The notes under the pieces are model-generated. The model was not told where the DNA came from. It ran no database searches and worked only from the letters and a program-made list of their open reading frames with translations. From the NCBI GenBank assembly GCA_031761405.1, contig JASEVX010000008.1, positions 68,970,236 through 69,034,235 on the forward strand: 64,000 bases of DNA, written 5' to 3'. The position numbers and the translations under genes were made by a program. This document shows positions 10,758-61,116 of this stretch, piece after piece; positions within the stretch are counted from its first letter, which is position 1, and every line of letters begins with the position of its first letter. Origin of the DNA: Serripes groenlandicus (lineage: Eukaryota; Mollusca; Bivalvia; Cardiida; Cardiidae).

Positions 10758-11910
10758 ATAGGATCTTAAACGCCATCAGATAAATTTGATAATATATATT
10801 GTAATTAAACATTCGCTTGTTTTGGTTTGTATCGTTATGAAACCTCGTGGTAAAAATAGAAATACGAAACAAAACTTCTAAAGAAAGATTGAACAAACAT
10901 TGTAAATTGTAGGACTTATTGAAAGACTTACAAATGGGGGAACCTTGGTCTTGGCGAAGGGATGTATTTTCAAATTCCGCACCTGGTGAAACAAAAGTAC
11001 GAAGAATTCGTTCATAACAAATGTCGTCAATTTGGTAAACATGATTTTAATCCAAGTGGGTTAAGTTAAATCTTTATTAGAGATTCAATTTATTACATTT
11101 TTATCAGTCATTTCTTATTGGCACACATGGTTACCGAATTGAAGGCTATGAGCTATATAAACAACTTTCCGAATGCATTAATGTTTCTAAACTTAGAAAT
11201 TCATGTACATATGTAATGAAAGCTTTTCAATTAAGATATGGATTGTAATGATGATATAAAGTGTACAAATAAGTTGTAAATATAAATGTTGTGTTGGCTT
11301 TACATTTTATGTACTGATATAATTTTCATTTATTGATGTGCATGTGTCATACTTTTGTCAATATGCCCCTTGCCTATATTTGATATATTGTCTCATATTA
11401 TTTTATATGTTATGTTATGTTATGTTATGTTGTATCATATTATATCATATCATATTATATCATATCATATCATATCATATTATATTATTATATTATATTA
11501 AATTGTGTTATATTAAATTGTATTGCATGTTCAGCGTGTATTAGGAAAAGCACATATATACAGTGGTGATGATGATATGATTTTACGTTTGAACCTTTTC
11601 CGTCTTTCGAATGTATGTACTTGTAAATTGGTAAATGTTCTCCACTTTCTATGTCATTTGTAATTTTTATTTGTGTATTTTGTTTTTCTCACGGGTCATG
11701 TGGCCTATTGAATTTATATTTGAAATAAACTTCTTCTTCTATATTCAAAATCCAAGATGCAGTTTGAGTTGCACGTACCAGCGATTTTTAAAATGCACAC
11801 ATACACTTGTTTAAACCTGAATGCCAATGATACCTTTAGATCAAAAGCATCCTAACTTCTTTATTCCCAGAATAAAAAGCATTTGTTTGTCGTGGCGATG
11901 GTCTGGATAT
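10758..11910. other. Unassigned region, possible LINE or gene 3' end
   Basis: No coding region recognised. Near 11725-11745 there is an AATAAA signal followed by a CTTCTTCTTCT tail, which is the sort of end seen in LINE 3' regions or transcript ends, but no reverse transcriptase motif is visible upstream. At 11403-11520 there is a low-complexity stretch of TGTTA/TCATA-type pentanucleotides. Confidence 0.35.
11403..11520. repeat. Pentanucleotide low-complexity tract
   Basis: Runs of TATGT and then ATCAT/ATTAT units; simple sequence only. Confidence 0.85.
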
Positions 11911-17284: not shown

Positions 17285-20200
17285 CCTATTTTTCTATGTT
17301 TGAGTTATTTGGTATGTACGTATTTTCCTATGTTCGAGTTAGTGGATATGTCGGTGTTTTCCTATGTTCGAGTGAGTTGATATGTTCGTATTTTTCTATG
17401 TTCGAGTTAGTCGATATGTCCGTATTTTCCCATGTTCGAGTTAGTTGATATGTCCGTAATTTCCCATGTTCGAGTTAGTTGATATGTACGTATTTTACTA
17501 TGTTCGAGTTAGTTGATATGTCCGTATTTTACTATGTTCGAGTTAGTTGATATGTCCGTATTTTACTATGTTCGAGTTAGTTGATATGTCCGTATTTTTC
17601 TATGTTCGAGTTAGTTGATATGTCCGTATTTTACTATGTTCGAGTTAGTTGATATGTCCGTATTTTATTATGTTCGAGTTAGTTGATATGTACGTATTTT
17701 TCTGTTTGAGTTAGTTGATATGTCCGTATTTTACCATGTTTGAGTTAGTTGATATGTCCGTATTTTACTATGTTCGAGTTAGTTGATATGTACGTAGTTT
17801 TCTGTTTGAGTTAGTTGATATGTACGTATTTTACTATGTTTGAGTTAGTTGATATGTACGTATTTTACTATGTTTGAGTTAGTTGATATGTACGTATTTT
17901 TCTGTTTGAGTTAGTTGATATGTTCGTATTTTACTATGTTCGAGTTAGTTGATATGTACGTATTTTTCTGTTTGAGTTAGTTGATATGTTCGTATTTTAC
18001 TATGTTCGAGTTAGTTGATATGTACGTATTTTTCTGTTTGAGTTAGTTGATATGTTCGTATTTTACTATGTTCGAGTTAGTTGATATGTACGTATTTTTC
18101 TGTTTGAGTTAGTTGATATGTTCGTATTTTACTATGTTCGAGTTAGTTGATATGTTCGTATTTTACTATGTTTGAGTTAGTTGATATGTACGTATTTTAC
18201 TATGTTTGAGTTAGTTGATATGTCCGTATTTTACTATGTTTGAGTTAGTTGATATGTCCGTATTTTACTATGTTCGAGTTAGTTGATATGTCCGTATTTT
18301 ACTATGTTTGAGTTAGTTGATATGTACGTATTTTACTATGTTCGAGTTAGTTGATATGTACGTATTTTACTATGTTTGAGTTAGTTGATATGTCCGTATT
18401 TTACTATGTTTGAGTTAGTTGATATGTACGTATTTTTCTGTTTGAGTTAGTTGATATGTCCGTATTTTACCATGTTTGAGTTAGTTGATATGTCCGTATT
18501 TTACTATGTTCGAGTTAGTTGATATGTACGTAGTTTTCTGTTTGAGTTAGTTGATATGTACGTATTTTACTATGTTTGAGTTAGTTGATATGTACGTATT
18601 TTACTATGTTTGAGTTAGTTGATATGTACGTATTTTTCTGTTTGAGTTAGTTGATATGTTCGTATTTTACTATGTTCGAGTTAGTTGATATGTACGTATT
18701 TTTCTGTTTGAGTTAGTTGATATGTTCGTATTTTACTATGTTCGAGTTAGTTGATATGTACGTATTTTTCTGTTTGAGTTAGTTGATATGTTCGTATTTT
18801 ACTATGTTCGAGTTAGTTGATATGTACGTATTTTTCTGTTTGAGTTAGTTGATATGTTCGTATTTTACTATGTTCGAGTTAGTTGATATGTTCGTATTTT
18901 ACTATGTTTGAGTTAGTTGATATGTACGTATTTTACTATGTTTGAGTTAGTTGATATGTCCGTATTTTACTATGTTTGAGTTAGTTGATATGTCCGTATT
19001 TTACTATGTTCGAGTTAGTTGATATGTCCGTATTTTACTATGTTTGAGTTAGTTGATATGTACGTATTTTACTATGTTCGAGTTAGTTGATATGTACGTA
19101 TTTTACTATGTTTGAGTTAGTTGATATGTCCGTATTTTACTATGTTTGAGTTAGTTGATATGTCCGTATTTTACTATGTTTGAGTTAGTTGATATGTCCG
19201 TATTTTACTATGTTGGAGTTAGTTGATATGTATATATTTCCCATGTTTGAGTTAGTTGATATGTCCGTATTTTACTATGTTGGAGTTAGTTGATATGTCC
19301 GTATTTTACTATGTTCGAGTTAGTTGATATGTACGTATTTTACTATGTTCGAGTTAGTTGATATGTCCGTATTTTACTAAGTTCGAGTTAGTTGTTATGT
19401 CCGTATTTTACTATGTTGGAGTTAGTTGATATGTACGTATTTTACTATGTTTGAGTTAGTTGATATGTTCGTATTTTGCTATGTTCGAGTTAGTTGTTAT
19501 GTACGTATTTTACTATGTTCGAGTAAGTTGATATGTCCGTATTTTTCTATGTTTGAGTTAGTTGATATGTACGTATTTTACTATGTTCGAGTTAGTTGAT
19601 ATGTTCGTATTTTACTTTGTTTGAGTTAGTTGATATGTCCGTATTTTACTATGTTTGAGTTAGTTGATATGTACGTATTTTACTATGTTCGAGTTAGTTG
19701 ATATGTCCGTATTTTACTATGTTCGAGTTAGTTGATATGTCCGTATTTTACTATGTTCGAGTTAGTTGATATGTACGTATTTTACTATGTTCGAGTTAGT
19801 TGATATGTCCGTATTTTACTATGTTCGAGTTAGTTGATATGTCCGTATTTTACTATGTTCGAGTTAGTTGATATGTACGTATTTTACTATGTTCGAGTTA
19901 GTTGATATGTCCGTATTTTACTATGTTCGAGTTAGTTGATATGTCCGTATTTTACTATGTTCGAGTTAGTTGATATGTACGTATTTTACTATGTTCGAGT
20001 TAGTTGATATGTCCGTATTTTACTATGTTCGAGTTAGTTGATATGTTCGTATTTTACTATGTTTGAGTTAGTTGATATGTACGTATTTTTCTATGTTTGA
20101 GTTAGTTGATATGTACGTATTTTACTATGTTCGAGTTAGTTGATATGTTCGTATTTTACTTTGTTTGAGTTAGTTGATATGTTCGTATTTTACTAAGTTC

Positions 20201-23168
20201 GAGTTAGTTGATATGTCCGTATTTTACTATATTCGAGTTAGTTGATATGTACGTATTTTACTATGTTCGAGTTAGTTGATATGTACGTATTTTACACGTA
20301 TTTTACTATGTTTGAGTTAGTTGATATGTACGTATTTTTCTGTTTGAGTTAGTTGATATGTACGTATTTTACTATGTTTGAGTTAGTTGATATGTACGTA
20401 TTTTACTATGTTTGAGTTAGTTGATATGTACGTATTTTTCTGTTTGAGTTAGTTGATATGTTCGTATTTTACTATGTTCGAGTTAGTTGATATGTACGTA
20501 TTTTACTATGTTCGAGTTAGTTGATATGTACGTATTTTACACGTATTTTACTATGTTTGAGTTAGTTGATATGTACGTATTTTTCTGTTTGAGTTAGTTG
20601 ATATGTACGTATTTTACTATGTTTGAGTTAGTTGATATGTACGTATTTTACTATGTTTGAGTTAGTTGATATGTACGTATTTTTCTGTTTGAGTTAGTTG
20701 ATATGTTCGTATTTTACTATGTTCGAGTTAGTTGATATGTACGTATTTTTCTGTTTGAGTTAGTTGATATGTTCGTATTTTACTATGTTCGAGTTAGTTG
20801 ATATGTACGTATTTTTCTGTTTGAGTTAGTTGATATGTTCGTATTTTACTATGTTCGAGTTAGTTGATATGTACGTATTTTTCTGTTTGAGTTAGTTGAT
20901 ATGTTCGTATTTTACTATGTTCGAGTTAGTTGATATGTTCGTATTTTACTATGTTTGAGTTAGTTGATATGTACGTATTTTACTATGTTTGAGTTAGTTG
21001 ATATGTCCGTATTTTACTATGTTTGAGTTAGTTGATATGTCCGTATTTTACTATGTTCGAGTTAGTTGATATGTACGTATTTTACTATGTTCGAGTTAGT
21101 TGATATGTCCGTATTTTCCCATGTTCGAGTTAGTTGATATGTTCGTATTTTACTTTGTTTGAGTTAGTTGATATGTACGTATTTTACTATGTTCGAGTTA
21201 GTTGATATGTCCGTATTTTACTATGTTCGAGTTAGTTGATATGTACGTATTTTACTATGTTTGAGTTAGTTGATATGTACGTATTTTACCATGTTCGAGT
21301 TAGTTGATATGTACGTATTTTACTATGTTTGAGTTAGTTGATATGTTCGTATTTTACTATGTTCGAGTTAGTTGATATGTTCGTATTTTACTATGTTCGA
21401 GTTAGTTGATATGTACGTATTTTACTATGTTCGAGTTAGTTGATATGTACGTATTTTACTATGTTCGAGTTAGTTGATATGTCCGTATTTTCCCATGTTC
21501 GAGTTAGTTGATATGTACGTATTTTACTTTGTTTGAGTTAGTTGATATGTACGTATTTTACTATGTTCGAGTTAGTTGTTATGTCCGTATTTTACTATGT
21601 TCGAGTTAGTTAATATGTACGTATTTTCCTATGTTCGAGTTAGTTGATATGTCCGTATTTTACTATGTTCGAGTTAGTTGATATATACGTATTTTACTAT
21701 ATTCGAGTTAGTTGATATGTACGTATTTTACTATGTTCGAGTTAGTTGATATGTACGTATTTTCCTATGTTCGAGTTAGTTGATATGTACGTATTTTCCT
21801 ATGTTCGAGTTAGTTGATATGTACGTATTTTACTATGTTCGAGTTAGTTGTTATGTCCGTATTTTACTATGTTCGAGTTAGTTAATATGTACGTATTTTC
21901 CTATGTTCGAGTTAGTTGATATGTCCGTATTTTACTATGTTTGATTTAGTTGATATGTCCGTATTTTACTATGTTTGAGTTAGTTGATATGTACGTATTT
22001 TACTATGTTCGAGTTAGTTGATATGTACGTATTTTGCTATGTTTGAGTTAGTTGATATGTACGTATTTTACTATGTTTGAGTTAGTTGATATGTACGTAT
22101 TTTACTATGTTTGAGTTAGTTGATATGTACGTATTTTACTATGTTTGAGTTAGTTGATATGTACGTATTTTCCTTTGTTCGAGTTAGTAAAATACGTACA
22201 TATCAACTAACTCGAACATAGTAAAATACGTACATATCAACTAACTCAAACATAGTAAAATACGTACATATCAACTAACTCGAACATGGGAAAATACGGA
22301 CATATCAACTAACTTCGAGTTAGTTGATATGTACGTATTTTACTTTGTTTGAGTTAGTTGATATGTACGTATTTTCCCATGTTCGAGTTAGTTGATATGT
22401 ACGTATTTTACTATGTTTGAGTTAGTTGATATGTACGTATTTTACTATGTTTGAGTTAGTTGATATGTACGTATTTTACTATGTTTGAGTTAGTTGATAT
22501 GTACGTATTTTACTATGTTCGAGTTAGTTGATATGTACGTATTTTACTATGTTCGAGTTAGTTGATATGTACGTATTTTACTATGTTCGAGTTAGTTGAT
22601 ATGTACGTATTTTACTATATTCGAGTTAGTTGATATGTCCGTATTTTACTATGTTCGAGTTAGTTGATATGTCCGTATTTTACTATGTTCGAGTTAGTTG
22701 ATATGTACGTATTTTACTTTGTTTGAGTTAGTTGATATGTCCGTATTTTACTATGTTGGAGTTAGTTAATATGTACGTATTTTACTATGTTGGAGTTAGT
22801 TGATATGTACGTATTTTACTAAGTTCGAGTTAGTTGATATGTACGTATTTTACTAAGTTCGAGTTAGTTGATATGAATATATTTCCCATGTTTGAGTTAG
22901 TTGATATGTCCGTATTTTACTATGTTCGAGTTAGTTGATATGAATATATTTCCCATGTTTGAGTTAGTTGATATGTCCGTTTTTTACTATGTTCGAGTTA
23001 GTTGTTATGTACGTATTTTACTATATTCGAGTAGTTGATATGTCCGTATTTTACTATGTTCGAGTTAGTTGATATCTCCGTATTTTACTATGTTTGAGTT
23101 AGTTGATATCTCCGTATTTTACTATGTTCGAGTTAGTTGTTATGTACGTATTTTCCTATGTTCGAGTA
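17285..23168. repeat. 34-bp satellite, long array
   Basis: About 170 copies of a 34-bp unit containing TATGTTCGAGTTAGTTGATA and TGTACGTATTTTAC. There are C/T, A/C/T variants and a shortened form (TTTTTCTGTTTGAG). Higher-order duplication is visible: a block from about 17690 recurs 736 bp later with the same variant order. The array ends directly before the first BHMT-like exon copy, so if the gene is real this is intron sequence. Confidence 0.96.
22188..22314 (-). repeat. Inverted segment inside the 34-bp array
   Basis: Just under four monomers in reverse orientation (AAAATACGTACATATCAACT) lie between forward monomers. Both junctions fall inside the unit: GAGTTAGTAAAATACG on the left and AACTAACTTCGAGTTAG on the right. 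Confidence 0.92.
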
Positions 23169-23198
23169 TTTGGGAGACCTCTGTACGTTTAAACATAG

Positions 23199-23396
23199 CA
23201 GTTTTATGGCCATAGAGAAAAGACGCGTGTAATTGGACGTGAAAACGACACAGAACGAATGAACATCGCCGCCCTGAAAATGGCCCGAGAAGTTGCGGAT
23301 GAGCATGGATGTTTAATAGCGGGAAATATTTGTAATAGTTCTGTGTATGTGACCGACGACGAAAAGGTGTATGATTACATCGACAAGATGTTTAAG
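23199..23396 (+). pseudogene. BHMT-like: BHMT-like exon, copy 1, frameshifted
   Basis: This 198-bp segment matches the intact exon at 28851-29049 closely, but one A is missing in the run near 23216-23222. With the same acceptor (ACATAG) and frame as the intact copy, it reads into a stop at GTGTAA shortly after. Downstream of that point the frame is still open and encodes the same family motif (NIAALKMAREVADEHG, LIAGNICNSSVYV). The donor AAG|GTATGG is retained. Either this copy is dead, or an acceptor shifted by one base is used. It is the left copy of a tandem segmental duplication. Confidence 0.7.
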
Positions 23397-25755
23397 GTAT
23401 GGAAATAGTTGTACTAGTTCTGTGTATGTGACCGACGACGAAAAGGCGAATGATTACATCGACAAGATGTTTAAGGTATGGAAATAGTTGTAATAGTTCT
23501 GTGTTTGGCCCGGCGACGAAAAAGTGAATGATTACATCGACAAGATATTTAAGGTATGGACATAGTTGTAATAGTTCTGTGTATGTGCCCGGCGACGAAA
23601 AGGCGAATGATTACATCGACAAGATGTTTAAGGTATGGAAATAGTTGTAATAGTTCTGTGTTTGGCCCGGCGACGAAAAAGTGAATGATTACATCGACAA
23701 GATGTTTAAGGTATGGACATAGTTGTAATAGTTCTGTGTATGTGCCTGGCGACGAAAAGGTGAATGATTACATCGACAATATGTTTAAGGTATGGACATA
23801 GTTGTAATAGTTCTGTGTATGTGCCCGGCGACGAAAAGGTGAATGATTACATCGACAAGATGTTTAAGGTATGGACATAGTTGTAACAGTTCTTTATTAA
23901 ACCGGGTGACGAAAAGGCTAATGATTACATCGACAAGATGTTTAAGGTATGGACATAGTTGTAACAGTTCTATAGTAAACCGGGTGACGAAAAGGCTAAT
24001 GATTACATCGACAAGATGTTTCAGGTTAGCAAATAGTTTTAACAGTTCTATAGTAAACCGGGTGACGAAAAGGCTAATGATTACATCAACAAGATGTTTA
24101 AGGTATGGACATATTTGTAATAATTCTGTGTAGGTGCCTTGCGACGAAAAGGTGAATGATTACATCGACAAGATGTTTAAGGTATTGACATAGTTGTAAT
24201 AGTTCTGTGTATGTGCCTGGCGACGAAAAGGTGAATGATTACATCGACAAGATGTTTAAGGTATGGACATAGTTGTTATAGTTCTGTGTATGTGCCTGGC
24301 GACAAAAAGGTGAATGATTACATCAACAAGATGTTTAAGGTATGGACATATTTGTAATAATTCTGTGTAGGTGCCCGGCGACGAAAAGGTGAATGATTAC
24401 ATCGACAAGATGTTTAAGGTATGGACATAGTTGTAATAGTTCTGTGTATGTGCCCGGCGACGAAAAGGTGAATGATTACATCGACAAGATGTTTAAGGTA
24501 TGGACATAGTTGTAATAGTTCTGTGTATGTGCCCGGCGACGAAAAGGCGAATGATTACATCGACAAGATGTTTAAGGTATGGAAATAGTTGTAATAGTTC
24601 TGTGTTTGGCCCGGCGACGAAAAAGTGAATGATTACATCGACAAGATGTTTAAAGTATGGACATAGTTGTAATAGTTCTGTGTATGTGCCTGGCGACGAA
24701 AAGGTGAATTATTACATCAACAAGATGTTTAAGGTATGGACATAGTTGTAATAGTTCTGTGTATGTGCCCGGCGACGAAAAGGTGAATGATTACATCGAC
24801 AATATGTTTAAGGTATGGACATAGTTGTAATAGTTCTGTGTATGTGCCTGGCGACGAAAAGGCGAATGATTACATCGACAAGATGTTTAAGGTATGGAAA
24901 TAGTTGTAATAGTTCTGTGTTTGGCCCGGCGACGAAAAAGTGAATGATTACATCGACAAGATGTTTAAAGTATGGACATAGTTGTAATAGTTCTGTGTAT
25001 GTGCCTGGCGACGAAAAGGTGAATTATTACATCAACAAGGTGTTTAAGGTATGGACATAGTTGTAATAGTTCTGTGTATGTGCTCAGCGACGAAAAGGTG
25101 AATGATTACATCGACAAGATGTTTAAGGTATGGACATAGTTGTAACAGTTCTTTATTAAACCGGGTGACGAAAAAGCTAATGATTACATCGACAAGATGT
25201 TTAAGGTATGGACATAGTTGTAATAGTTCTTTATTAAACCGGGTGACGAAAAGGCTATTGATTACATTGACAAGATGTTTTAGGTTAGCAAATAGTTGTA
25301 ACAGTTCTATAGTAAACCGGGTGACGAAAAGGTGAATGATTACATCAACAAGATGTTTAAGGTATGGACATAGTTGTAACAGTTCTATAGTTAACCGGTT
25401 GACGAAAATGCTAATGATTACATTGACAAGATGTTTTAGGTTACCAAAACGTTGTAACAGTTCTATGTTAAACTGGTTGACAAAAAGGCTAATGATTACA
25501 TCGATAACATGTTTAACGTTAGCAAATAGTTTTAACAGTTCTATAGTAAACCGGTTGACGAAAATGCTAATGATTACATCGACAAGATGTTTAACGTTAG
25601 CAAATAGTTTTAACAGTTCTATATTAAACCGGTGACGAAAAGACTAATGATACCATCGACAAAATGTTTAAGGTATGGAAATAGTTGTTACAGTTCTATA
25701 GTAAACCGGGTGACGAAACGGCTAATGATTACATCGACAAGATGTTTAAGGTAAT
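23397..25755 (+). repeat. 79-bp exon-derived satellite, copy 1
   Basis: About 30 head-to-tail units of about 79 bp. Each consists of the last part of the adjacent BHMT-like exon (from TTCTGTGTATGTG through GACAAGATGTTTAAG), its splice donor and about 20 bp of intron. The first unit after the exon is nearly identical to it (GTGACCGACGACG). Later units share CCCGGCGACG, and the most distal ones use CTATAGTAAACCGGGTGACG. The peptide in the exon frame stays readable in many units, but every unit contains an in-frame stop in its intronic part. The open frames beginning MITSTRC are in another frame and are artefacts. Confidence 0.9.
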
Positions 25756-26470
25756 GAAAATCGATATGTAATGACAATGACGTGGCACAAAATCTCTGAA
25801 TCAGATATATGTGTTTGTTAATAGCGAGTATCAACCCTTTTCGTCCTGACGAATTAAATCAATCAATCTTGTTATAATCGATCATTTCTTAAATTAGACA
25901 TGTGGAATAACAAGTTAATAACGCGTGATTATAAATCGTGACGTATATCCATTCATAGCCATAGCAGACGGTATTGCAGTTCATGGGGGCTGTTTCAACA
26001 ACGTCTGTTTCAACAATGTCTTTTTCAACAATGTCTGTTTCAACAATGTCTGCTGTTATTTGTATTCGGTCAATCTGAAGGGACTTTTAAACCGTCCTTC
26101 ACCCATTCGGACACGGATTCACCATCAACATGCTAGTTACAATGTACATTCATGACTTACGTTACCGATCTAAATCGACTAAAACGTTAATTCAAAATGT
26201 TCCGAAAGTAAATCACTATAACTAGTAACCATTTCCCACAAACAAAGCATCTGCAGCAGACAATGTTGAGGCCAAAATGAATATAAGGAACATATTGATA
26301 CGTAAGAGAACAAATATCGCATTAGTTGGAAAGATGGTGGCAAATGGGGAAAACAAATGCTCGTCTTCTACAATTGCGCCAACATTCGTCTGCAAGTTGG
26401 AAAGGGTAAATAAACTTATGTACTATACAGTTGATCTTGTTTAAGTTGAAAACACTAATTTGCAAGATCT
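25756..26470. other. Unassigned spacer in duplication copy 1
   Basis: Contains a motif like the satellite-cassette edge (CAACCCTTTTCGTCCTGACG at about 25829) and, in reverse orientation, CATCTGCAGCAGAC near 26248. A small TCAACAATGTCTGTT repeat lies at 25993-26050. No gene recognised; the 76-residue frame at 25925 covers this repeat. Confidence 0.45.
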
Positions 26471-26479
26471 ATAAACCTA

Positions 26480-26742
26480 AGCTGAATGCTTGACAACTTT
26501 AAAGAAGACTTTACTTGTTCGAATAAGGTTGATTGATTGTTTGACAACTTTAAAGAAGAATTTACTTGTTCGAATAAGGTTGATTGTTTGTTTGACAACT
26601 TTAAAGAAGACTTTACTTGTTCGAATAAGGCTGATTGATTGTTTAACAACTTTAAAGAAGACTTAACTTGTTCGAATAAGGTTGATTGTTTATTTGACAA
26701 CTTTAAAGAAGACTTTACTTGTTCGAATAAGGTTGATTGTTT
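26480..26742. repeat. 51-bp minisatellite (about 5 copies), duplication copy 1
   Basis: Unit contains TTTACTTGTTCGAATAAGGT and GACAACTTTAAAGAAG. The 51-bp length gives an open minus-strand frame (SNKQSTLFEQVKSSLKL per unit), which is a product of the repeat. Copy 2 of the duplication has three more units. Confidence 0.92.
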
Positions 26743-27112
26743 GTAACGCCGTGTTCAACCCTTGTTCAGTCATGTCATGGCGACCACTTCGACTACTTAT
26801 GTGTTTATTGGGTTTCTCACACCAGCACTCCACACAACAGTCTGTCCAAGCAGCTGAGTTTGTGTGAGGGACGGAAGTGTATATCGCATAATATCTCTTA
26901 TACACAGAAATGTCACCAATAGTGATTGATTTGTTTTTTAAAGCTGTTTTCAAATATTGTGCAGTCATATGACGGCGGCCAGCTCACCTGCCCATGTGTT
27001 TTCTCATAGCAGAACTCTACACAACTGGCTGATTTTCACATATATTGTTAGCTCCTTAACGAAAGACGAATTACGCCTCTCGTATTAAAGTTTGTCAAAC
27101 ATAGGAAAGAAT

Positions 27113-27190
27113 GTTGGCGGAGCTTGGATTCGAACTCACAACCCCTGGAGTGTCAGTGCGCTTCTCTACCGACTCGGTACTCGGCTGACG
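27113..27190 (-). mobile_element. tRNA-like SINE head, duplication copy 1
   Basis: On the minus strand the segment has an A-box-like GAGTCGGTAGAG and a B-box GAGTTCGAATCC at roughly tRNA spacing. An acceptor stem does not close well, so it is read as the head of a tRNA-derived SINE or a tRNA relic, not as a functional tRNA gene. The identical segment is in the second duplication copy. Confidence 0.5.
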
Positions 27191-27194
27191 GAAA

Positions 27195-27780
27195 TAAAAC
27201 ATTGAACATATTTTACACTCCATTATACAAAACGTTCAATGTAACAGGACAACTAAATTGGAGTTAATAAATCCATACAGTAGACAAAACGTTTAATGTA
27301 ACGGGACAACTAAATTTCGAGCTAATAAATCCACACACTAGACCAAATTTTCAATGTAACGGGACAACTAAATCGGAGTTAATAAATCCATACAGTAGAC
27401 AAAATTTTCAATGTAACGGGACAACTAAATCCGAGTTAATAAATCCACACAGTAGACAACATTTTCAATGTAACGGGACAACTAAATCCGAGCTAATACA
27501 TCCATACAACTAAGTCGGAGTTAATAAATCCATACAGTAGACAAAACGTTCAATGTAACGGACAACTAAATCCGAGTTAATAAATCCACACAGTAGACAA
27601 AACATTCAATGTAACGGGACAACTAAATCGGAGTTAATAAATCCATACAGTAGACAAAACGTTCAATGTAACGGACAACTAAATCCGAGTTAATAAATCC
27701 ACACAGTAGACAAAACGTTTAATGTAACTGGACAACTAAATCCGAGCTAATAAATCTATACAGTAGACAAAATTTTCAAC
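27195..27780. repeat. 58-59-bp minisatellite, duplication copy 1
   Basis: About 10 units containing TTCAATGTAACGGGACAACT and GAGTTAATAAATCC, with one partly deleted unit near 27500. Confidence 0.9.
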
Positions 27781-27785
27781 GTTGA

Positions 27786-28193
27786 AATCAACAGGGGAAA
27801 TAGCCCATAGGAATATCGTTGAAATCAACAGTGGAAATAGCCCATATAAACAAACGAAATAGAGATTGCGATTTCATTGGACAGGAAACGAGCACATGTT
27901 TATAAATATGTCCCACGGTGGGCTCCATTTGTAACCTGGTGCGTTCTTGTCCTATTAAGCGTTTGTGGGTTATTGACAATTCCGGGAAATAAGTTCTAGG
28001 GAAGACGTTTCAATAGTTCTTAGTATTTATTATCATTCTATTTACATGTGGCCAGATAAGCCTGTCCAATTTACGGATCTGAATATTCTCACTTCTTTCC
28101 CCACTCTTTTAACGCCTCTAAAATTATTTGAGTTTTCCTTCATTCAATTAACGCTTGGATCACGTGACGTACAGTGGTCACATGACACATCAT
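27786..28193. other. Unassigned segment at the right end of duplication copy 1
   Basis: Begins with a short repeat (GTTGAAATCAACAG, twice) and ends at CATGACACATCAT. There it joins the 34-bp satellite in copy 1, but unique sequence at 33923 in copy 2. No gene recognised. Confidence 0.5.
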
Positions 28194-28828
28194 ATTTTCC
28201 CATGTTCGAGTTAGTTGATATGTCCGTATTTTTCTATGTTCGAGTTAGTTGATATGTCCGTATTTTACTATGTTCGAGTTAGTTGATATGTCCGTATTTT
28301 CCTATGTTCGAGTTAGTTGATATGTACGTATTTTACTATGTTTGAGTTAGTTGATATGTTCGTATTTTACTATGTTCGAGTTAGTTGTTATGTACGTATT
28401 TTACTATGTTTGAGTTAGTTGATATGTCCGTATTTTCCTATGTTCAAGTTAGTTGTTATGTTCGTATTTTACTATGTTTGAGTTAGTTGTTATGTACGTA
28501 TTTTACTATGTTTGAGTTAGTTGATATGTCCGTATTTTACTATGTTCGAGTTAGTTGTTATGTACGTATTTTTCTGTTCGAGTTAGTTGTTATGTACGTA
28601 TTTTACTATGTTTGAGTTAGTTGTTATGTACGTATTTTACTATGTTTGAGTTAGTTGATATGTACGTATTTTACTATGTTCGAGTTAGTTGTTATGTACG
28701 TATTTTACTATGTTTGAGTTAGTTGATATGTCCGTATTTTACTATGTTCGAGTTAGTTGATATGTACGTATTTTTCTGTTCGAGTTAGTTGTTATGTCCG
28801 TATTTTCCTATGTTCGAGTATTTGGAAG
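28194..28828. repeat. 34-bp satellite block between duplication copies
   Basis: About 18 units of the family at 17.3-23.2 kb, with many GTTATG variants like those at the right end of the first array. It marks the junction of the tandem duplication. Confidence 0.95.
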
Positions 28829-28850
28829 TCCTCTGTACGTTTAAACATAG

Positions 28851-29049
28851 CAGTTTTATGGCCATAGAGAAAAAGATGCGTATAATTGGACGTGAAAACG
28901 ACACAGAACGAATGAACATCGCCGCCCTGAAAATGGCCCGAGAAGTTTCGGATGAGCATGGATTTTTAATAGCGGGAAATATTTGTAATAGTTCTGTGTA
29001 TGTGACCGACGACGAAAAGGTGTATGATTACATCGACAAGATGTTTAAG
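28851..29049 (+). CDS. BHMT-like: BHMT-like homocysteine S-methyltransferase, internal exon (intact copy)
   Basis: The exon encodes about 66 residues of the N-terminal half of a homocysteine S-methyltransferase barrel. It includes MRIIGREND, then NIAALKMAREVSDEHG and LIAGNICNSSVYV, ending YIDKMFK. Enzymes of this family move a methyl group from betaine (or a similar donor) to homocysteine to make methionine, in the cytosol, using a zinc held by cysteines encoded further downstream. The proposed acceptor is ACATAG|CAG and the donor AAG|GTATGG; the exon ends on a complete codon (phase 0). It is intact where copy 1 is frameshifted. Upstream exons are not visible and may lie left of the window. 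The family call rests on recognised sequence pattern; exon borders are inferred. Confidence 0.75.
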
Positions 29050-31329
29050 GTATGGAAATAGTTGTACTAGTTCTGTGTATGTGACCGACGACGAAAAGGC
29101 GAATGATTACATCGACAAGATGTTTAAGGTATGGAAATAGTTGTAATAGTTCTGTGTTTGGCCCGGCGACGAAAAAGTGAATGATTACATCGACAAGATA
29201 TTTAAGGTATGGACATAGTTGTAATAGTTCTGTGTATGTGCCCGGCGACGAAAAGGCGAATGATTACATCGACAAGATGTTTAAGGTATGGAAATAGTTG
29301 TAATAGTTCTGTGTTAGGCCCGGCGACGAAAAAGTGAATGATTACATCGACAAGATGTTTAAGGTATGGACATAGTTGTAATAGTTCTGTGTATGTGCCT
29401 GGCGACGAAAAGGTGAATGATTACATCGACAATATGTTTAAGGTATGGACATAGTTGTAATAGTTCTGTGTATGTGCCCGGCGACGAAAAGGTGAATGAT
29501 TACATCGACAAGATGTTTAAGGTATGGACATAGTTGTAACAGTTCTTTATTAAACCGGGTGACGAAAAGGCTAATGATTACATCGACAAGATGTTTAAGG
29601 TATGGACATAGTTGTAACAGTTCTATAGTAAACCGGGTGACGAAAAGGCTAATGATTACATCGACAAGATGTTTCAGGTTAGCAAATAGTTTTAACAGTT
29701 CTATAGTAAACCGGGTGACGAAAAGGCTAATGATTACATCAACAAGATGTTTAAGGTATGGACATATTTGTAATAATTCTGTGTAGGTGCCTTGCGACGA
29801 AAAGGTGAATGATTACATCGACAAGATGTTTAAGGTATTGACATAGTTGTAATAGTTCTGTGTATGTGCCTGGCGACGAAAATGTGAATGATTACATCGA
29901 CAAGATGTTTAAGGTATGGACATAGTTGTTATAGTTCTGTGTATGTGCCTGGCGACAAAAAGGTGAATGATTACATCAACAAGATGTTTAAGGTATGGAC
30001 ATATTTGTAATAATTCTGTGTAGGTGCCCGGCGACGAAAAGGTGAATGATTACATCGACAAGATGTTTAAGGTATGGACATAGTTGTAATAGTTCTGTGT
30101 ATGTGCCTGGCGACGAAAAGGCGAATGATTACATCGACAAGATGTTTAAGGTATGGAAATAGTTGTAATAGTTCTGTGTTTGGCCCGGCGACGAAAAAGT
30201 GAATGATTACATCGACAAGATGTTTAAAGCATGGACATAGTTGTAATAGTTCTGTGTATGTGCCTGGCGACGAAAAGGTGAATTATTACATCAACAAGAT
30301 GTTTAAGGTATGGACATAGTTGTAATAGTTCTGTGTATGTGCCCGGCGACGAAAAGGTGAATGATTACATCGACAATATGTTTAAGGTATGGACATAGTT
30401 GTAATAGTTCTGTGTATGTGCCTGGCGACGAAAAGGCGAATGATTACATCGACAAGATGTTTAAGGTATGGAAATAGTTGTAATAGTTCTGTGTTTGGCC
30501 CGGCGACGAAAAAGTGAATGATTACATCGACAAGATGTTTAAAGTATGGACATAGTTGTAATAGTTCCGTGTATGTGCCTGGCGACGAAAAGGTGAATTA
30601 TTACATCAACAAGGTGTTTAAGGTATGGACATAGTTGTAATAGTTCTGTGTATGTGCCCGGCGACGAAAAGGTGAATGATTACATCGACAAGATGTTTAA
30701 GGTATGGACATAGTTGTAACAGTTCTTTATTAAACCGGGTGACGAAAAGGCTAATGATTACATCGACAAGATGTTTAAGGTATGGACATAGTTGTAATAG
30801 TTCTTTATTAAACCGGGTGACGAAAAGGCTAATGATTACATTGACAAGATGTTTTAGGTTAGCAAATAGTTGTAACAGTTCTATAGTAAACCGGGTGACG
30901 AAAAGGTGAATGATTACATCAACAAGATGTTTAAGGTATGGACATAGTTGTAACAGTTCTATAGTTAACCGGTTGACGAAAATGCTAATGATTACATTGA
31001 CAAGATGTTTTAGGTTACCAAAACGTTGTAACAGTTCTATGTTAAACTGGTTGACAAAAAGGCTAATGATTACATCGATAACATGTTTAACGTTAGCAAA
31101 TAGTTTTAACAGTTCTATAGTAAACCGGTTGACGAAAATGCTAATGATTACATCGACAAGATGTTTAACGTTAGCAAATAGTTTTAACAGTTCTATATTA
31201 AACCGGTGACGAAAAGACTAATGATACCATCGACAAAATGTTTAAGGTATGGAAATAGTTGTTACAGTTCTATAGTAAACCGGGTGACGAAAAGGCTAAT
31301 GATTACATCGACAAGATGTTTAAGGTAAT
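29050..31329 (+). repeat. 79-bp exon-derived satellite, copy 2
   Basis: About 29 units, in the same order of variants as copy 1 but with one unit fewer. Each unit retains a copy of the exon end and the potential splice donor AAG|GTATGG (or GTTAGC in distal units). Confidence 0.9.
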
Positions 31330-32052
31330 GAAAATCGACATGTAATGACAATGACGTGGCACAAAATCTCTGAATCAGATATATGTGTTTGTTAATAGCG
31401 AGTATCAACCCTTTTCGTCCTGACGAATTAAATCAATCAATCTTGTTATAATCGATCATTTCTTAAATTAGACATGTGGAATAACAAGTTAATAACGCGT
31501 GATTATAAATCGTGACGTATATCCATTCATAGCCATAGCAGACGGTATTGCAGTTCATGGTGGCTGTTTCAACAACGTCTGTTTCAACAATGTCTTTTTC
31601 AACAATGTCTGTTTCAACAATGTCTGCTGTTATTTGTATTCGGTCAATCTGAAGGGACTTTTAAACCGTCCTTCACCCATTCGGACACGGATTCACCATC
31701 AACATGCTAGTTAGAATGTACATTCATGACTTACGTTACCGATCTAAATCGACTAAAACGTTAATTCAAAATGTTCCGAAAGTAAATCACTATAACTAGT
31801 AACCATTTCCCACAAACAAAGCATCTGCAGCAGACAATGTTGAGGCCAAAATGAATATAAGGAACATATTGATAAGTAAGAGAACAAATATCGCATTAGT
31901 TGGAAAGATGGTGGCAAATGGGGAAAACAAATGCTCGTCTTCTACAATTGCGCCAACATTCGTCTGCAAGTTGGAAAGGGTAAATAAACTTATGTACTAT
32001 ACAGTTGATCTTGTTTAAGTTGAAAACAACACTAATTTGCAAGATATATAAA
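31330..32052. other. Unassigned spacer in duplication copy 2
   Basis: Near-identical to 25756-26470. No gene recognised. Confidence 0.5.
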
Positions 32053-32475
32053 CCTAAGCTGAATGCTTGACAACTTTAAAGAAGACTTTACTTGTTCGAA
32101 TAAGGTTGATTGATTGTTTGACAACTTTAAAGAAGACTTTACTTGTTCGAATAAGGTTGATTGTTTGTTTGACAACTTTAAAGAAGACTTTACTTGTTCG
32201 AATAAGGCTGATTGATTGTTTAACAACTTTAAAGAAGACTTAACTTGTTCGAATAAGGTTGATTGTTTATTTGACAACTTTAAAGAAGACTTTACTTGTT
32301 CGAATAAGGTTGATTGTTTGTTTGACAACTTTAAAGAAGACTTTACTTGTTCGAATAAGGCTGATTGATTGTTTAACAACTTTAAAGAAGACTTAACTTG
32401 TTCGAATAAGATTGATTGTTTATTTGACAACTTTAAAGAAGACTTTACTTGTTCGAATAAGGTTGATTGTTTGTA
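32053..32475. repeat. 51-bp minisatellite (about 8 copies), duplication copy 2
   Basis: Same family as 26480-26742, expanded by three units. The 132-residue minus-strand frame follows the repeat period. Confidence 0.92.
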
Positions 32476-32842
32476 ACGCCGTGTTCAACCCTTGCTCAGT
32501 CATGTCATGGCGACCACTTCGACTACTTATGTGTTTATTGGGTTTCTCACACCAGCACTCCACACAACAGTCTGTCCAAGCAGCTGAGTTTGTGTGAGGG
32601 ACGGAAGTGTATATCGCATAATATCTCTTATACACAGAAATGTCACCAATAGTGATTGATTTGTTTTTTAAAGCTGTTTTCAAATATTGTGCAGTCATAT
32701 GACGGCGGCCAGCTCACCTGCCCATGTGTTTTCTCATAGCAGAACTCTACACAACTGGCTGATTTTCACATATATTGTTAGCTCCTTAACGAAAGACGAA
32801 TTACGCCTCTCGTATTAAAGTTTGTCAAACATAGGAAAGAAT

Positions 32843-32920
32843 GTTGGCGGAGCTTGGATTCGAACTCACAACCCCTGGAGTGTCAGTGCGCTTCTCTACC
32901 GACTCGGTACTCGGCTGACG
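32843..32920 (-). mobile_element. tRNA-like SINE head, duplication copy 2
   Basis: Same as 27113-27190, carried along by the segmental duplication. Confidence 0.5.
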
Positions 32921-32949
32921 GAAATAAAACATTGAACATATTTTACACT

Positions 32950-33510
32950 CCATTATACAAAACGTTCAATGTAACGGGACAACTAAATTGGAGTTAATAA
33001 ATCCATACAGTAGACAAAACGTTTAATGTAACGGGACAACTAAATTTCGAGCTAATAAATCCACACAGTAGACCAAATTTTCAATGTAACGGGACAACTA
33101 AATCCGAGTTAATAAATCCACACAGTAGACAACATTTTCAATGTAACGGGACAACTAAATCCGAGCTAATACATCCATACAACTAAGTCGGAGTTAATAA
33201 ATCCATACAGTATACAAAACGTTCAATGTAACGGACAACTAAATCCGAGTTAATAAATCCACACAGTAGACAAAACTTTCAATGTAACGGGACAACTAAA
33301 TCGGAGTTAATAAATCCATACAGTAGACAAATCGTTCAATGTAACGGACAACTAAATCGGAATTAATAAATCCACACAGTAGACAAAACGGTCAATGTAA
33401 CGGGACAACTAAATCCGAGCTAATAAATCTATACAGTAGACAAAACGTTCAATGTAACGGACAACTAAATCGGAGTTAATAAATCCATACAGTAGACAAA
33501 ATTTTCAACG
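32950..33510. repeat. 58-59-bp minisatellite, duplication copy 2
   Basis: Same family as 27195-27780, with unit rearrangement at its right side relative to copy 1. Confidence 0.9.
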
Positions 33511-33922
33511 TTGAAATCAACAGGGGAAATAGCCCATAGGAATATCGTTGAAATCAACAGTGGAAATAGCCCATATAAACAAACGAAATAGAGATTGCGA
33601 TTTCATTGGACAGGAAACGAGCACATGTTTATAAATATGTCCCACGGTGGGCTCCATTTGTAACCTGGTGCGTTCTTGTCCTATTAAGCGTTTGTGGGTT
33701 ATTGACAATTCCGGGAAATAAGTTCTAGGGAAGACGTTTCAATAGTTCTTAGTATTTATTATCATTCTATTTACATGTGGCCAGATAAGCCTGTCCAATT
33801 TACGGATCTGAATATTCTCACTTCTTTCCCCACTCTTTTAACGCCTCTAAAATTATTTGAGTTTTCCTTCATTCAATTAACGCTTGGATCACGTGACGTA
33901 CAGTGGTCACATGACACATCAT

Positions 33923-37116: not shown

Positions 37117-37640
37117 TACTGTTACGGAGATTCAATTGACCCTATGTGGTACTGTTACGGAGATTCAATCTACCCTATGTGGTCCTGTTACGGAGATTCA
37201 ATTTACCCTATGTGGTACTGTTACGGAGATTCAATCTACCCTATGTGGTCCTGTTACGGAGATTCAATCTACCCTATGTGGTCCTGTTACGGAGATTCAA
37301 TCTACCCTATGTGGTCCTGTTACGGAGATTCAATCTACCCTATGTGGTACTGTTACGGAGATTCAATCTACCCTATGTGATCCTGTTATTGAGATTCAAT
37401 CTACCCTATGTGGTACTGTTACGGAGATTCAATCTACCCTATGTGGTCCTGTTACGGAGATTCAATTGACCCTATGTGGTCATGTTATGGAGATTCACTC
37501 TACCTTTTGTGTTCCTGTTACGGAGATTCAATTGACCCTATGTAGTACTGTTACGGAGATTCAATCTACCCTATGTGGTCCTGTTACAGAGATTCAATAT
37601 ACCCTATGTGGTACTGTTACGGAGATTCAATCTACCCTAC
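37117..37640 (+). repeat. 33-bp satellite, forward half
   Basis: About 16 units containing TGTTACGGAGATTCAATCTA and CCCTATGTGGT. The 33-bp unit gives open frames in all three plus-strand frames. Confidence 0.95.
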
Positions 37641-38953
37641 ATAGGGTCAATTGAATCTCCGTAACAGGATCACATAGGGTAGATTGAATCTCCGTAACAG
37701 GACCACATAGGGTAGATTGAATCTCCGTAACAGTACCACATAGGGTAGATTGAATCTCCGTAACAGTACCACATAGGGTAGATTGAATCTCCGTAACAGT
37801 ACCACATAGGGTAGATTGAATCTCCGTAACAGGATCACATAGGGTAGATTGAATCTCCGTAACAGGACCACATAGGGTAGATTGAATCTCCGTAACAGTA
37901 CCACATAGGGTAGATTGAATCTCCGTAACAGTACCACATAGGGTAGATTGAATCTCCGTAACAGTACCACATAGGGTAGATTGAATCTCCGTAACAGGAT
38001 CACATAGGGTAAATTGAATCTCCGTAACAGGACCACATAGGGTCAATTGAATCTCCGTAACAGGACCACATAGGGTAGATTGAATCTCCGTAACAGTAAC
38101 ACATAGGGTAGATTGAATCTCCGTAACAGGACCACATAGGGTAGATTGAATCTCCGTAACAGGACCACATATGGTAAATTGAATCTCCGTAACAGGACCA
38201 CATAGGGTAGATTGAATCTCCGTAACAGGATAACATAGGGTAAATTGAATCTCCGTAACAGGATCACATAGGGTAAATTGAATCTCCGTAACAGGACCAC
38301 ATAGGGTAGATTGAATCTCCGTAACAGTACCACATAGGGTAGATTGAATCTCCGTAACAGGACCACATAGGGTAGATTGAATCTCCGTAACAGTACCACA
38401 TAGGGTAGATTGAATCTCCGTAACAGTACCACATAGGGTAGATTGAATCTCCGTAACAGGACCACATAGGGTAGATTGAATCTCCGTAACAGTACCACAT
38501 AGGGTAGATTGAATCTCCGTAACAGGATCACATAGGGTAAATTGAATCTCCGTAACAGGACCACATAGGGTCAATTGAATCTCCGTAACATGACCACATA
38601 GGGTAGATTGAATCTCCGTAACAGTAACACATAGGGTAGATTGAATCTCCGTAACAGGACCACATAGGGTAGATTGAATCTCCGTAACAGGACCACATAG
38701 GGTAAATTGAATCTCCGTAACAGGACCACATAGGGTAGATTGAATCTCCGTAACAGGATCACATAGGGTAAATTGAATCTCCGTAACAGGATCACATAGG
38801 GTAAATTGAATCTCCGTAACAGGACCACATAGGGTAGATTGAATCTCCGTAACAGTACCACATAGGGTAGATTGAATCTCCGTAACAGGACCACATAGGG
38901 TAGATTGAATCTCCGTAACAGTACCACATAGGGTAGATTGAATCTCCGTAACA
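37641..38953 (-). repeat. 33-bp satellite, inverted half
   Basis: About 40 units of the same family in the opposite orientation. The switch is at the palindromic junction CTACCCTACATAGGGTCAA near 37640. A block of variants (including the TGTTAC, GATAAC and ATGGTAAA forms) recurs about 528 bp apart, indicating secondary duplication. The 457-residue minus-strand frame over 37627-39000 is this array, not a gene. Confidence 0.95.
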
Positions 38954-38956
38954 GAA

Positions 38957-40895: not shown

Positions 40896-40898
40896 AAG

Positions 40899-41185
40899 AC
40901 AAAAACGCCTTCCCGGTAGACCTTTATGCCTGTGTGTGCAGCAGACAACAAATCGAGGAATTCGCCAGACAAGCTCGTGAACTCGGGATCCAGTATGTAG
41001 GGCTATGTTGTAGAAACTCTGGTTCCATGTCGCGTATAGTCGCTGAAGAGTATGGCCGGACACCAGCAGCCTCTCGTTATCGACCATGTATGGAGAACCA
41101 CTATATGTTTGGTGACAAGACTAAGTTTAATACCTACCATACCGACTATTTACGAAATGCTACAAATACCAGCAATAAACTATAA
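40899..41185 (+). CDS. BHMT-like: BHMT-like homocysteine S-methyltransferase, last exon
   Basis: Encodes the C-terminal part of a homocysteine S-methyltransferase. It has an FPVDLYACVCSRQQIEEFAR segment that corresponds to the last barrel helix, then IQYVGLCCRN with the paired zinc-binding cysteines (GGCC in vertebrate BHMT), VAEEYGRTPAASRY and a short tail ending at TAA. The proposed acceptor is ATTTAAG|AC, 3 bases after the minisatellite. The exon starts with two bases of a split codon, which does not fit directly with the phase-0 donor at 29049, so exons lie between or the two belong to different genes. The last residues (ATNTSNKL) are encoded by the first unit of the following minisatellite, so the original stop was probably displaced. 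The first G of the GG pair is L here. Confidence 0.8.
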
Positions 41186-41495
41186 ATACCGGCAATAAAC
41201 TATAAATACTAGCAATAAACTACAAATACCAGCAATAAACTATAAATACCAGCAATACACTAAGAATACCGGCAATAAACTGTAAATGCCAGCAATAAAC
41301 TACAAATACCAGCAACAAACTATAAATACCAGCTATAAACTAAAAATAATAGCAATAAACTATAAATACCAGCAATAAATTACAAATATCAGCAATCAAC
41401 TATAAATACATGTACCAGTAATAAACTACAAATACCAGCAATACACTATAAATACCAGTGATAACCTATAAATACCAGCTATAAACTATAAACAT
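41161..41495. repeat. 20-bp minisatellite after the last exon
   Basis: About 16 units of ATACCAGCAATAAACTATAA, with one longer unit carrying ATGTACC near 41409. It overlaps the 3' end of the BHMT-like reading frame. Every unit offers an AATAAA-type signal. Confidence 0.92.
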
Positions 41496-60543: not shown

Positions 60544-61081
60544 TAGGAGTGCAACGATTCACGCTGTTGTAAGTCTAACAATCATTAGGAATTTAATGCA
60601 TCGTACATTGAGTGAGAAAGAATGAAAGATAAACCTAGTACCTTTCTATAAATAACTCTCTCAAATACTATAGTATGTTGACCACGTGATCAGTGTACAT
60701 TTTTTCCTAACTTGTAATCTCGCGAGACAGTTAATAGAAGAGAACTTCGTCCAATGGATGCGTGAAATAACACCATGTGACATTTTCACGTGACATTTAT
60801 TTGCCGCTCTTTCTTGAAGCCGTAGTAAATATTTCCTTATTTGGAAATCTACTACGAGGCAAAATGTAATAATTTTCATTGACCATCGATGATATGACGC
60901 AATATATTATAAGGGGATGAATGCACCGGTATTCCCGGTCAGTTTAACGCTTATAGAGATATAAACAGTGAGATACGTCGAGAAAATGTCTTTTATACTT
61001 TAATTATATATTCCAATCGAATATTCGTTAATCGAGAGGGTAATATCCGAACCGAAAGTTACCTGAATCGTTGCAGCCCTA
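60544..61081. mobile_element. hAT-type MITE with 18-bp terminal repeats and 8-bp target duplication
   Basis: Left end TAGGAGTGCAACGATTCA; right end is the complement of TAGGGCTGCAACGATTCA (16 of 18 match). It is flanked by GTAATCCA at 60536-60543 and GTAATCCG at 61082-61089, an 8-bp duplication with one change, as expected for the hAT superfamily. It encodes no transposase and sits just upstream of the unrelated hAT transposase gene. Confidence 0.85.
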
Positions 61082-61116
61082 GTAATCCGCTCTTTAGACT
61101 TTTCTGCGTTTTACAC

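Follow-up and report, generated by a model that had tools for sequence, protein, structure and literature searches.

The BHMT-like gene pieces and the surrounding repeats

The window, i.e., the whole analysed stretch of 64,000 nucleotides, is minisatellite-rich animal DNA with a GC content of 33.7%, of which 55% is assigned to tandem repeats by TRF. On its + strand, three recognisable pieces of a BHMT-like (homocysteine methyltransferase) gene can be located by tblastn, the middle one occurring in two copies (A and B) together with the repeats following it. The relevant features are listed below, with residues numbered according to the protein P0001.

10912..11015, + strand: remnant of BHMT-like exon 1, residues 5-58 (tblastn of 11 mollusc proteins, three-frame translation)
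17287..23167, + strand: 34-bp minisatellite filling the intron directly upstream of exon copy A, its tail lying within the duplicated block (TRF, sequence)
23202..23396, + strand: BHMT-like coding exon, copy A, open, 65 aa, residues 69-133, with acceptor CAG/TTT and donor AAG/GTATGG (tblastn)
23322..23400, + strand: source unit, comprising the terminal 75 bp of the exon and GTAT (unit cutting)
23401..25754, + strand: array A, comprising 30 copies of the exon end (family F1: 19, family F2: 11), with a donor-like site closing each of them (TRF, unit cutting, identity scan, tree)
25755..28193, + strand: remainder of block copy A with 15-, 51- and 57-bp tandem arrays (TRF, block alignment)
28193..28819, + strand: 34-bp array opening block copy B (TRF, junction sequence)
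28854..29049, + strand: exon copy B, shifted in frame by +1 through an additional A at 28870 and carrying four substitutions, reading FYGHREKDAYNWT followed by a stop (block alignment, translation)
29054..31328, + strand: array B, 29 copies, differing from array A by one 79-base gap and 10 substitutions (unit cutting, alignment)
31329..33922, + strand: remainder of block copy B up to the duplication junction (block alignment)
40898..41155, + strand: aligned part of the last BHMT-like exon, residues 258-343 (tblastn)

Between the 65-aa exon (GC content 42.6%) and eight BHMT-like proteins from heterodont clams, identity is 61.5-69.2% (E 5e-21 to 3e-26), and values of 58.8-67.4% to heterodont homologs are obtained for the last exon. 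The best full-length relatives, found with a query whose middle part did not come from the window, are the BHMT-like proteins of Mercenaria, Ruditapes, Mactra and Mya; besides these, scallop, mussel and limpet proteins also match the coding exon. Judged by these nearest relatives, the host of the locus is probably a heterodont bivalve. For tblastn of the window, 13 arrays were masked and 11 out of 120 listed proteins were employed, while results of an earlier tblastn refer to the first 150 lines of its output. The three inter-exon stretches within 11030-40894 consist of 71-73% tandem repeat versus 40-44% outside the gene (TRF). Repeat units in this region are diverse, with lengths of 34, 44, 51, 57, 32, 33 and 48 bp among them.

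The 79-bp unit, its source and its multiplication

Two 79-bp arrays were delimited with TRF, one of 31.0 copies at 23322-25753 and one of 30.0 copies at 28975-31327. If the units are cut where the exon ends, array A consists of one exon unit plus 30 copies and array B of one plus 29, bearing out the 59 units in two arrays counted in the sequence-only reading that preceded this analysis. The unit is composed of 75 bp that can be aligned with the exon end, plus GTAT from the intron, and thus contains more of the exon than the approximately 58 bp previously assumed. Since the heptamer GGAAATA occurs both in the exon (GCGGGAAATATTTG) and at the junction (GTATGGAAATAGTTG), the breakpoint can be placed at several points, corresponding to 67-75 bp of exon (at least 67 bp in any case) and 4-12 bp of intron. 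The final array unit continues into GTAATGAAAATCG, a junction-like sequence that probably represents the old start of the intron.

All copies (units 1-30 in A and 1-29 in B) are 68-95% identical to the 79-bp exon unit. When the latter was slid ungapped along the + strand, the best match reached 74 of 79 positions inside array A, where the scan started one base in and left unit A01 (95% identical) uncounted, versus 41 of 79 in 1-23300 and 31401-64000, so that the resemblance of exon and array is clearly beyond chance. Also in line with the sequence-only reading, the unit nearest to the exon, A01, is the most exon-like one and groups with the exon in the tree (support 85/87). In blastn searches at E<=1e-3, exons 1 and 5 with short flanks did not reveal a second copy in the window, nor did exon 2 outside 23100-31400. 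A joined array-translation query against predicted proteins yielded 3052 candidates but none at E<=1; since proteins of this kind are rarely predicted, the result is of little weight as to arrays in other species.

The proposed direction from exon to satellite is supported by protein homology, as the exon is conserved in other molluscs. An array existing first, from which the 3' end of the exon had been taken, might be suspected from the alignment of exon unit and array units across all 79 columns and from some unit sites which, by eye, are as close to other clam proteins as the exon is, for example, at VPGDE. However, the 25 codons of the copied exon end have aligned counterparts in BHMT-like proteins from gastropods and other bivalves, and reading on from the exon into the array in the same frame meets a stop codon already at 23406. 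The direction from array to exon is discarded in view of this homology, and an array-first origin is given next to no probability.

The array derived from the exon is not a smooth series. Identity to the exon unit along array A amounts to 89-95% in units 1-6, 75-80% in units 7-9, 89-94% in units 10-22 and 68-80% in units 23-30, reflecting two families in the order of 6 F1, 3 F2, 13 F1 and 8 F2 units. Family F1 (19 units in array A, 79 bp long in 15 cases and 78 bp in 4) is 89-95% identical to the exon unit, family F2 (11 units of 78 bp, one being of 77 bp) 68-80%. In the tree, which like the family consensuses was derived from array A alone (31 of 61 units), F2 is set apart from F1 and the exon with a support of 100/99; bootstrapping had not converged, with 3 of the 25 inner branches well supported and 17 open. 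Units 3-9 differ from units 19-25 by only 1-6 positions and units 14-17 from units 18-21 by 0-1; therefore, blocks of units were copied. Of the steady increase in divergence with distance from the exon that had been described, a coarse trend stands (Spearman rho for distance versus unit index 0.58 in A and 0.57 in B), whereas a smooth gradient is replaced by two families arranged in blocks. The gradient is a trend made of blocks and no clock.

Substitutions at third codon positions account for 6 of 12 differences between F1 and F2, 6 of 15 between exon and F2 and none of 5 between exon and F1, suggesting no concentration at this position, as would be expected for non-coding divergence. A coding-like divergence, as from two functional seeds, was also considered but discarded, as the 6 of 12 between F1 and F2 are too few to be told from one third. 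The split into F1 and F2 could reflect more than one seeding event.

The two arrays had been counted as separate, but array B turned out to be a recent tandem copy of array A. The stretch from inside the 34-bp array to 28193 recurs up to 33922, amounting to a tandem duplication of about 5.7 kb. Between A and B, the 79-bp arrays diverge by 0.44% and the intron flank next to them by 0.69%. Values of 0-0.4% apply to the source unit, the 51-bp array and the two spacers, and the 57-bp array reaches 2%. Gap bases number 79, 153 and 113 in the 79-, 51- and 57-bp arrays, respectively. The frameshift in exon copy B is located outside the copied exon part. Besides, the region around the 5' part of the exon (23151-23321 versus 28803-28974) carries 6 substitutions in 171 positions and one indel, about nine times the value elsewhere (17/4232; Fisher p = 1.8e-4, leaving out 9 junction columns and the 57-bp array, in which 10 of 497 positions differ). 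This excess might be due to conversion from another BHMT copy.

Differences of 0-0.7% over most of the block are also compatible with an assembly artefact, in which A and B are two haplotypes placed in tandem or the repeat number suffers from a collapse or expansion error. Such values lie within the range of bivalve heterozygosity, and the left junction of the duplication sits in a repeat. At the right junction, however, both copies leave a common non-array sequence for different flanks, and the relation between exon and array is independent of the duplication. We regard an artefact as rather unlikely, and a true duplication is preferred.

Copied donors and the state of the gene

The repetition of the splice donor, as pointed out in the sequence-only reading, holds throughout the arrays. 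The GT is kept in 58 of the 59 copies and the complete 9-mer of the exon donor, AAGGTATGG, in 41. In a simple duplex model, 45 of the 59 array donors pair with the 5' end of U1 at least as well as the real one, compared to 3.7% of 1338 GT sites at 41500-64000. The real donor itself is weak in this model (-6.2 versus -11.8 for a consensus donor). Translation of the extended exon shows that all 30 decoys of array A lead to one identical product ending in VWK and a stop codon, with exons of 274 to 2549 nt. Hence, variable transcripts in the protein sense, as had been envisaged, are not predicted for array A.

Nor is the locus in line with the active gene context presumed earlier. With the main arrays masked, the 11 proteins gave no convincing tblastn match on either strand of the window for residues 134-257 of P0001, i.e., about 124 middle residues; matches reaching this part had E-values of 0.08 or worse, with the best one falling inside the last exon. 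A complete S-methyltransferase domain, as needed in a functional BHMT-like gene, was therefore not found in the window by this search. In addition, the exon series is not open and in frame. The remnant of exon 1 lacks residues ~27-45 (about 19 codons) and changes frame mid-way (tblastn, three-frame translation), exon 2B bears its +1 shift, and a stop codon arises when exon 2A is connected with the last exon via the apparent acceptor. The last exon reads Cys-Cys-Arg (CCR) where Cys-Cys-Gly is invariant in 69 of 69 BHMT-like proteins (identifiers not beyond P0070, length 325 aa or more). Taken alone, the CCR change speaks only weakly for a dead gene, because in a leave-one-out comparison 13 of these 69 reference proteins likewise deviate at one conserved column of the last exon. 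Overall, the BHMT-like gene around the array looks broken. Exon 2A, however, is fully open with only one change among 17 columns conserved at least 95%, and the gene may therefore have died only lately; alternatively, the missing exons may be located outside the window or may have been lost in assembly.

The number and quality of the copied donors would also suit a gene still alive, with about 30 donors that regulate splicing or form a splice trap: U1 would be engaged at many sites, use of a decoy would result in the VWK stop and transcript decay, and output would fall with repeat number. The 41 donors sharing the real 9-mer and the 45 pairing at least as well with U1, against 3.7% of the GT sites at 41500-64000, as well as the open exon copy A are in favor of such a device. 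On the other hand, it would have to operate in a gene with a broken exon 1, a middle part not convincingly matched, the CCR change and a stop codon at the junction of exon 2A and the last exon. Moreover, the real donor is weak by itself in the model and the decoy exons are up to 2549 nt long, and long exons are in general poorly defined. A living gene controlled in this way is considered very improbable. The array is probably not a working splicing device, and any regulatory role appears unlikely.

Proposed origin and relation to known systems

Our preferred reading, to which we assign a probability of roughly 0.85, is "exon stuttering": a minisatellite seeded by an exon and lying in an intron of a BHMT-like gene that is decaying and probably belongs to a heterodont bivalve. 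As judged from the junction, a tandem duplication of about 79 bp would initially have brought the beginning of the intron next to an exon position 75 bp before the exon's end, aided by the 7-bp GGAAATA common to both breakpoints. The array would then have grown via copying of single units and of blocks of up to about seven units, resulting in the two families of alternating blocks, with the exon-adjacent unit probably being the newest exon copy; here, block copying is evident from the unit relationships, whereas the order of events is deduced. Subsequently, and visible in this assembly, about 5.7 kb comprising exon, array and following intron appear to have been tandemly duplicated, recently. 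The copied donors would finally be without a job, because the locus apparently does not offer what a working enzyme needs and any decoy of array A would add just VWK and a stop.

Exon stuttering has recently been described in chicken, where edges of coding exons with donor or acceptor recur in imperfect tandems through the adjacent intron, affecting 236 introns in 115 genes, 190 of these introns residing on dot chromosomes (PMC12954441, 2026). Hence, the rarity claimed in the sequence-only reading has to be qualified, as exon stuttering with copied splice sites is already on record, though in chicken. The chicken repeats comprise 20-187 bp of exon in 1-44 copies, cover the introns and vary in length among individuals; the association with GC-rich genes is given as such and not as a definition, and gerbils are mentioned as data not shown (PMC12954441). 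The clam locus shares with them a coding exon part copied in the adjacent intron (units 68-95% identical to the exon unit) and reaching the exon border with its splice site (GT in 58/59, 9-mer in 41/59), a size and number within these limits (75 bp, 29-30 copies) and a highly repetitive intron (inter-exon tandem repeat 71-73%). As to an unaltered source exon, the picture is mixed, with exon A open and exon B frameshifted outside the copied part. In contrast to the chicken cases, the setting is AT-rich (GC of 33.7% in the window and 42.6% in the exon), the array is very regular and head-to-tail, the host gene looks dead, the block is duplicated and the observation is from one individual.

Three other known processes are comparable in part. 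Tandem duplication of exon segments bearing AGGT as a route of intron gain, as in the Rogers model, the 24-bp repeats of fission yeast and potato RdRp (PMC4974935), likewise involves tandem copies of exon sequence carrying splice-site sequence, but in the clam the natural donor of an exon end is copied inside an existing intron. In the SmPoMuc mucin genes of Schistosoma, exon sequence of an invertebrate is also tandemly multiplied within a gene; there, the whole 27-bp exon plus flanking introns (about 1 kb) is repeated and codes for a repeat domain, with aberrant splicing reported, whereas the clam unit is a non-coding exon end plus donor (PMC2576457). Satellites seeded from rDNA spacers and transposons can form higher-order blocks (PMC5615363), and the clam array resembles them in having started from a pre-existing sequence and in its higher-order blocks, but its seed is the end of a protein-coding exon with donor and it is still found at its birthplace.

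In literature searches restricted to open-licence papers, no report of exon-end stuttering in an invertebrate was found, and a full-text search for "sequence stuttering" returned PMC12954441 alone. The clam array is likely an invertebrate, AT-rich example of exon stuttering and provides a unit-by-unit record of the transition from an exon end to a minisatellite. Its occurrence in an AT-rich mollusc suggests that the process is wider than the GC-rich chicken genes and requires another driver, with microhomology at the exon edge combined with local recombination being a candidate. One may go further and propose that the growth of a donor array behind an exon acts as a splice trap helping to silence the gene, and that stuttering is general in eukaryotes, independent of high GC content and bird dot chromosomes; we hold this broader proposal to be unlikely. 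If splice-trap silencing were true, repeat growth at an exon edge would be a route to gene loss, which would agree with stuttering and gene loss occurring together in birds, an association observed but left unexplained in PMC12954441.

Apart from the 79-bp arrays, a 20-bp array at 41160-41492 begins at the last codons of the final exon and contains the stop codon of this frame. It holds nine AATAAA motifs between 41174 and 41420, i.e., poly(A)-signal-like sequence has also been multiplied. At 37119-38954, two 33-bp arrays of a common unit but opposite orientation meet at 37639 and form a large inverted repeat (TRF). Finally, a 400-aa open frame at 60913-62112 bears a zf-C17orf113 domain (E 2e-14) together with a sub-threshold match to DUF4371, a combination characteristic of hAT-type transposase-derived genes.
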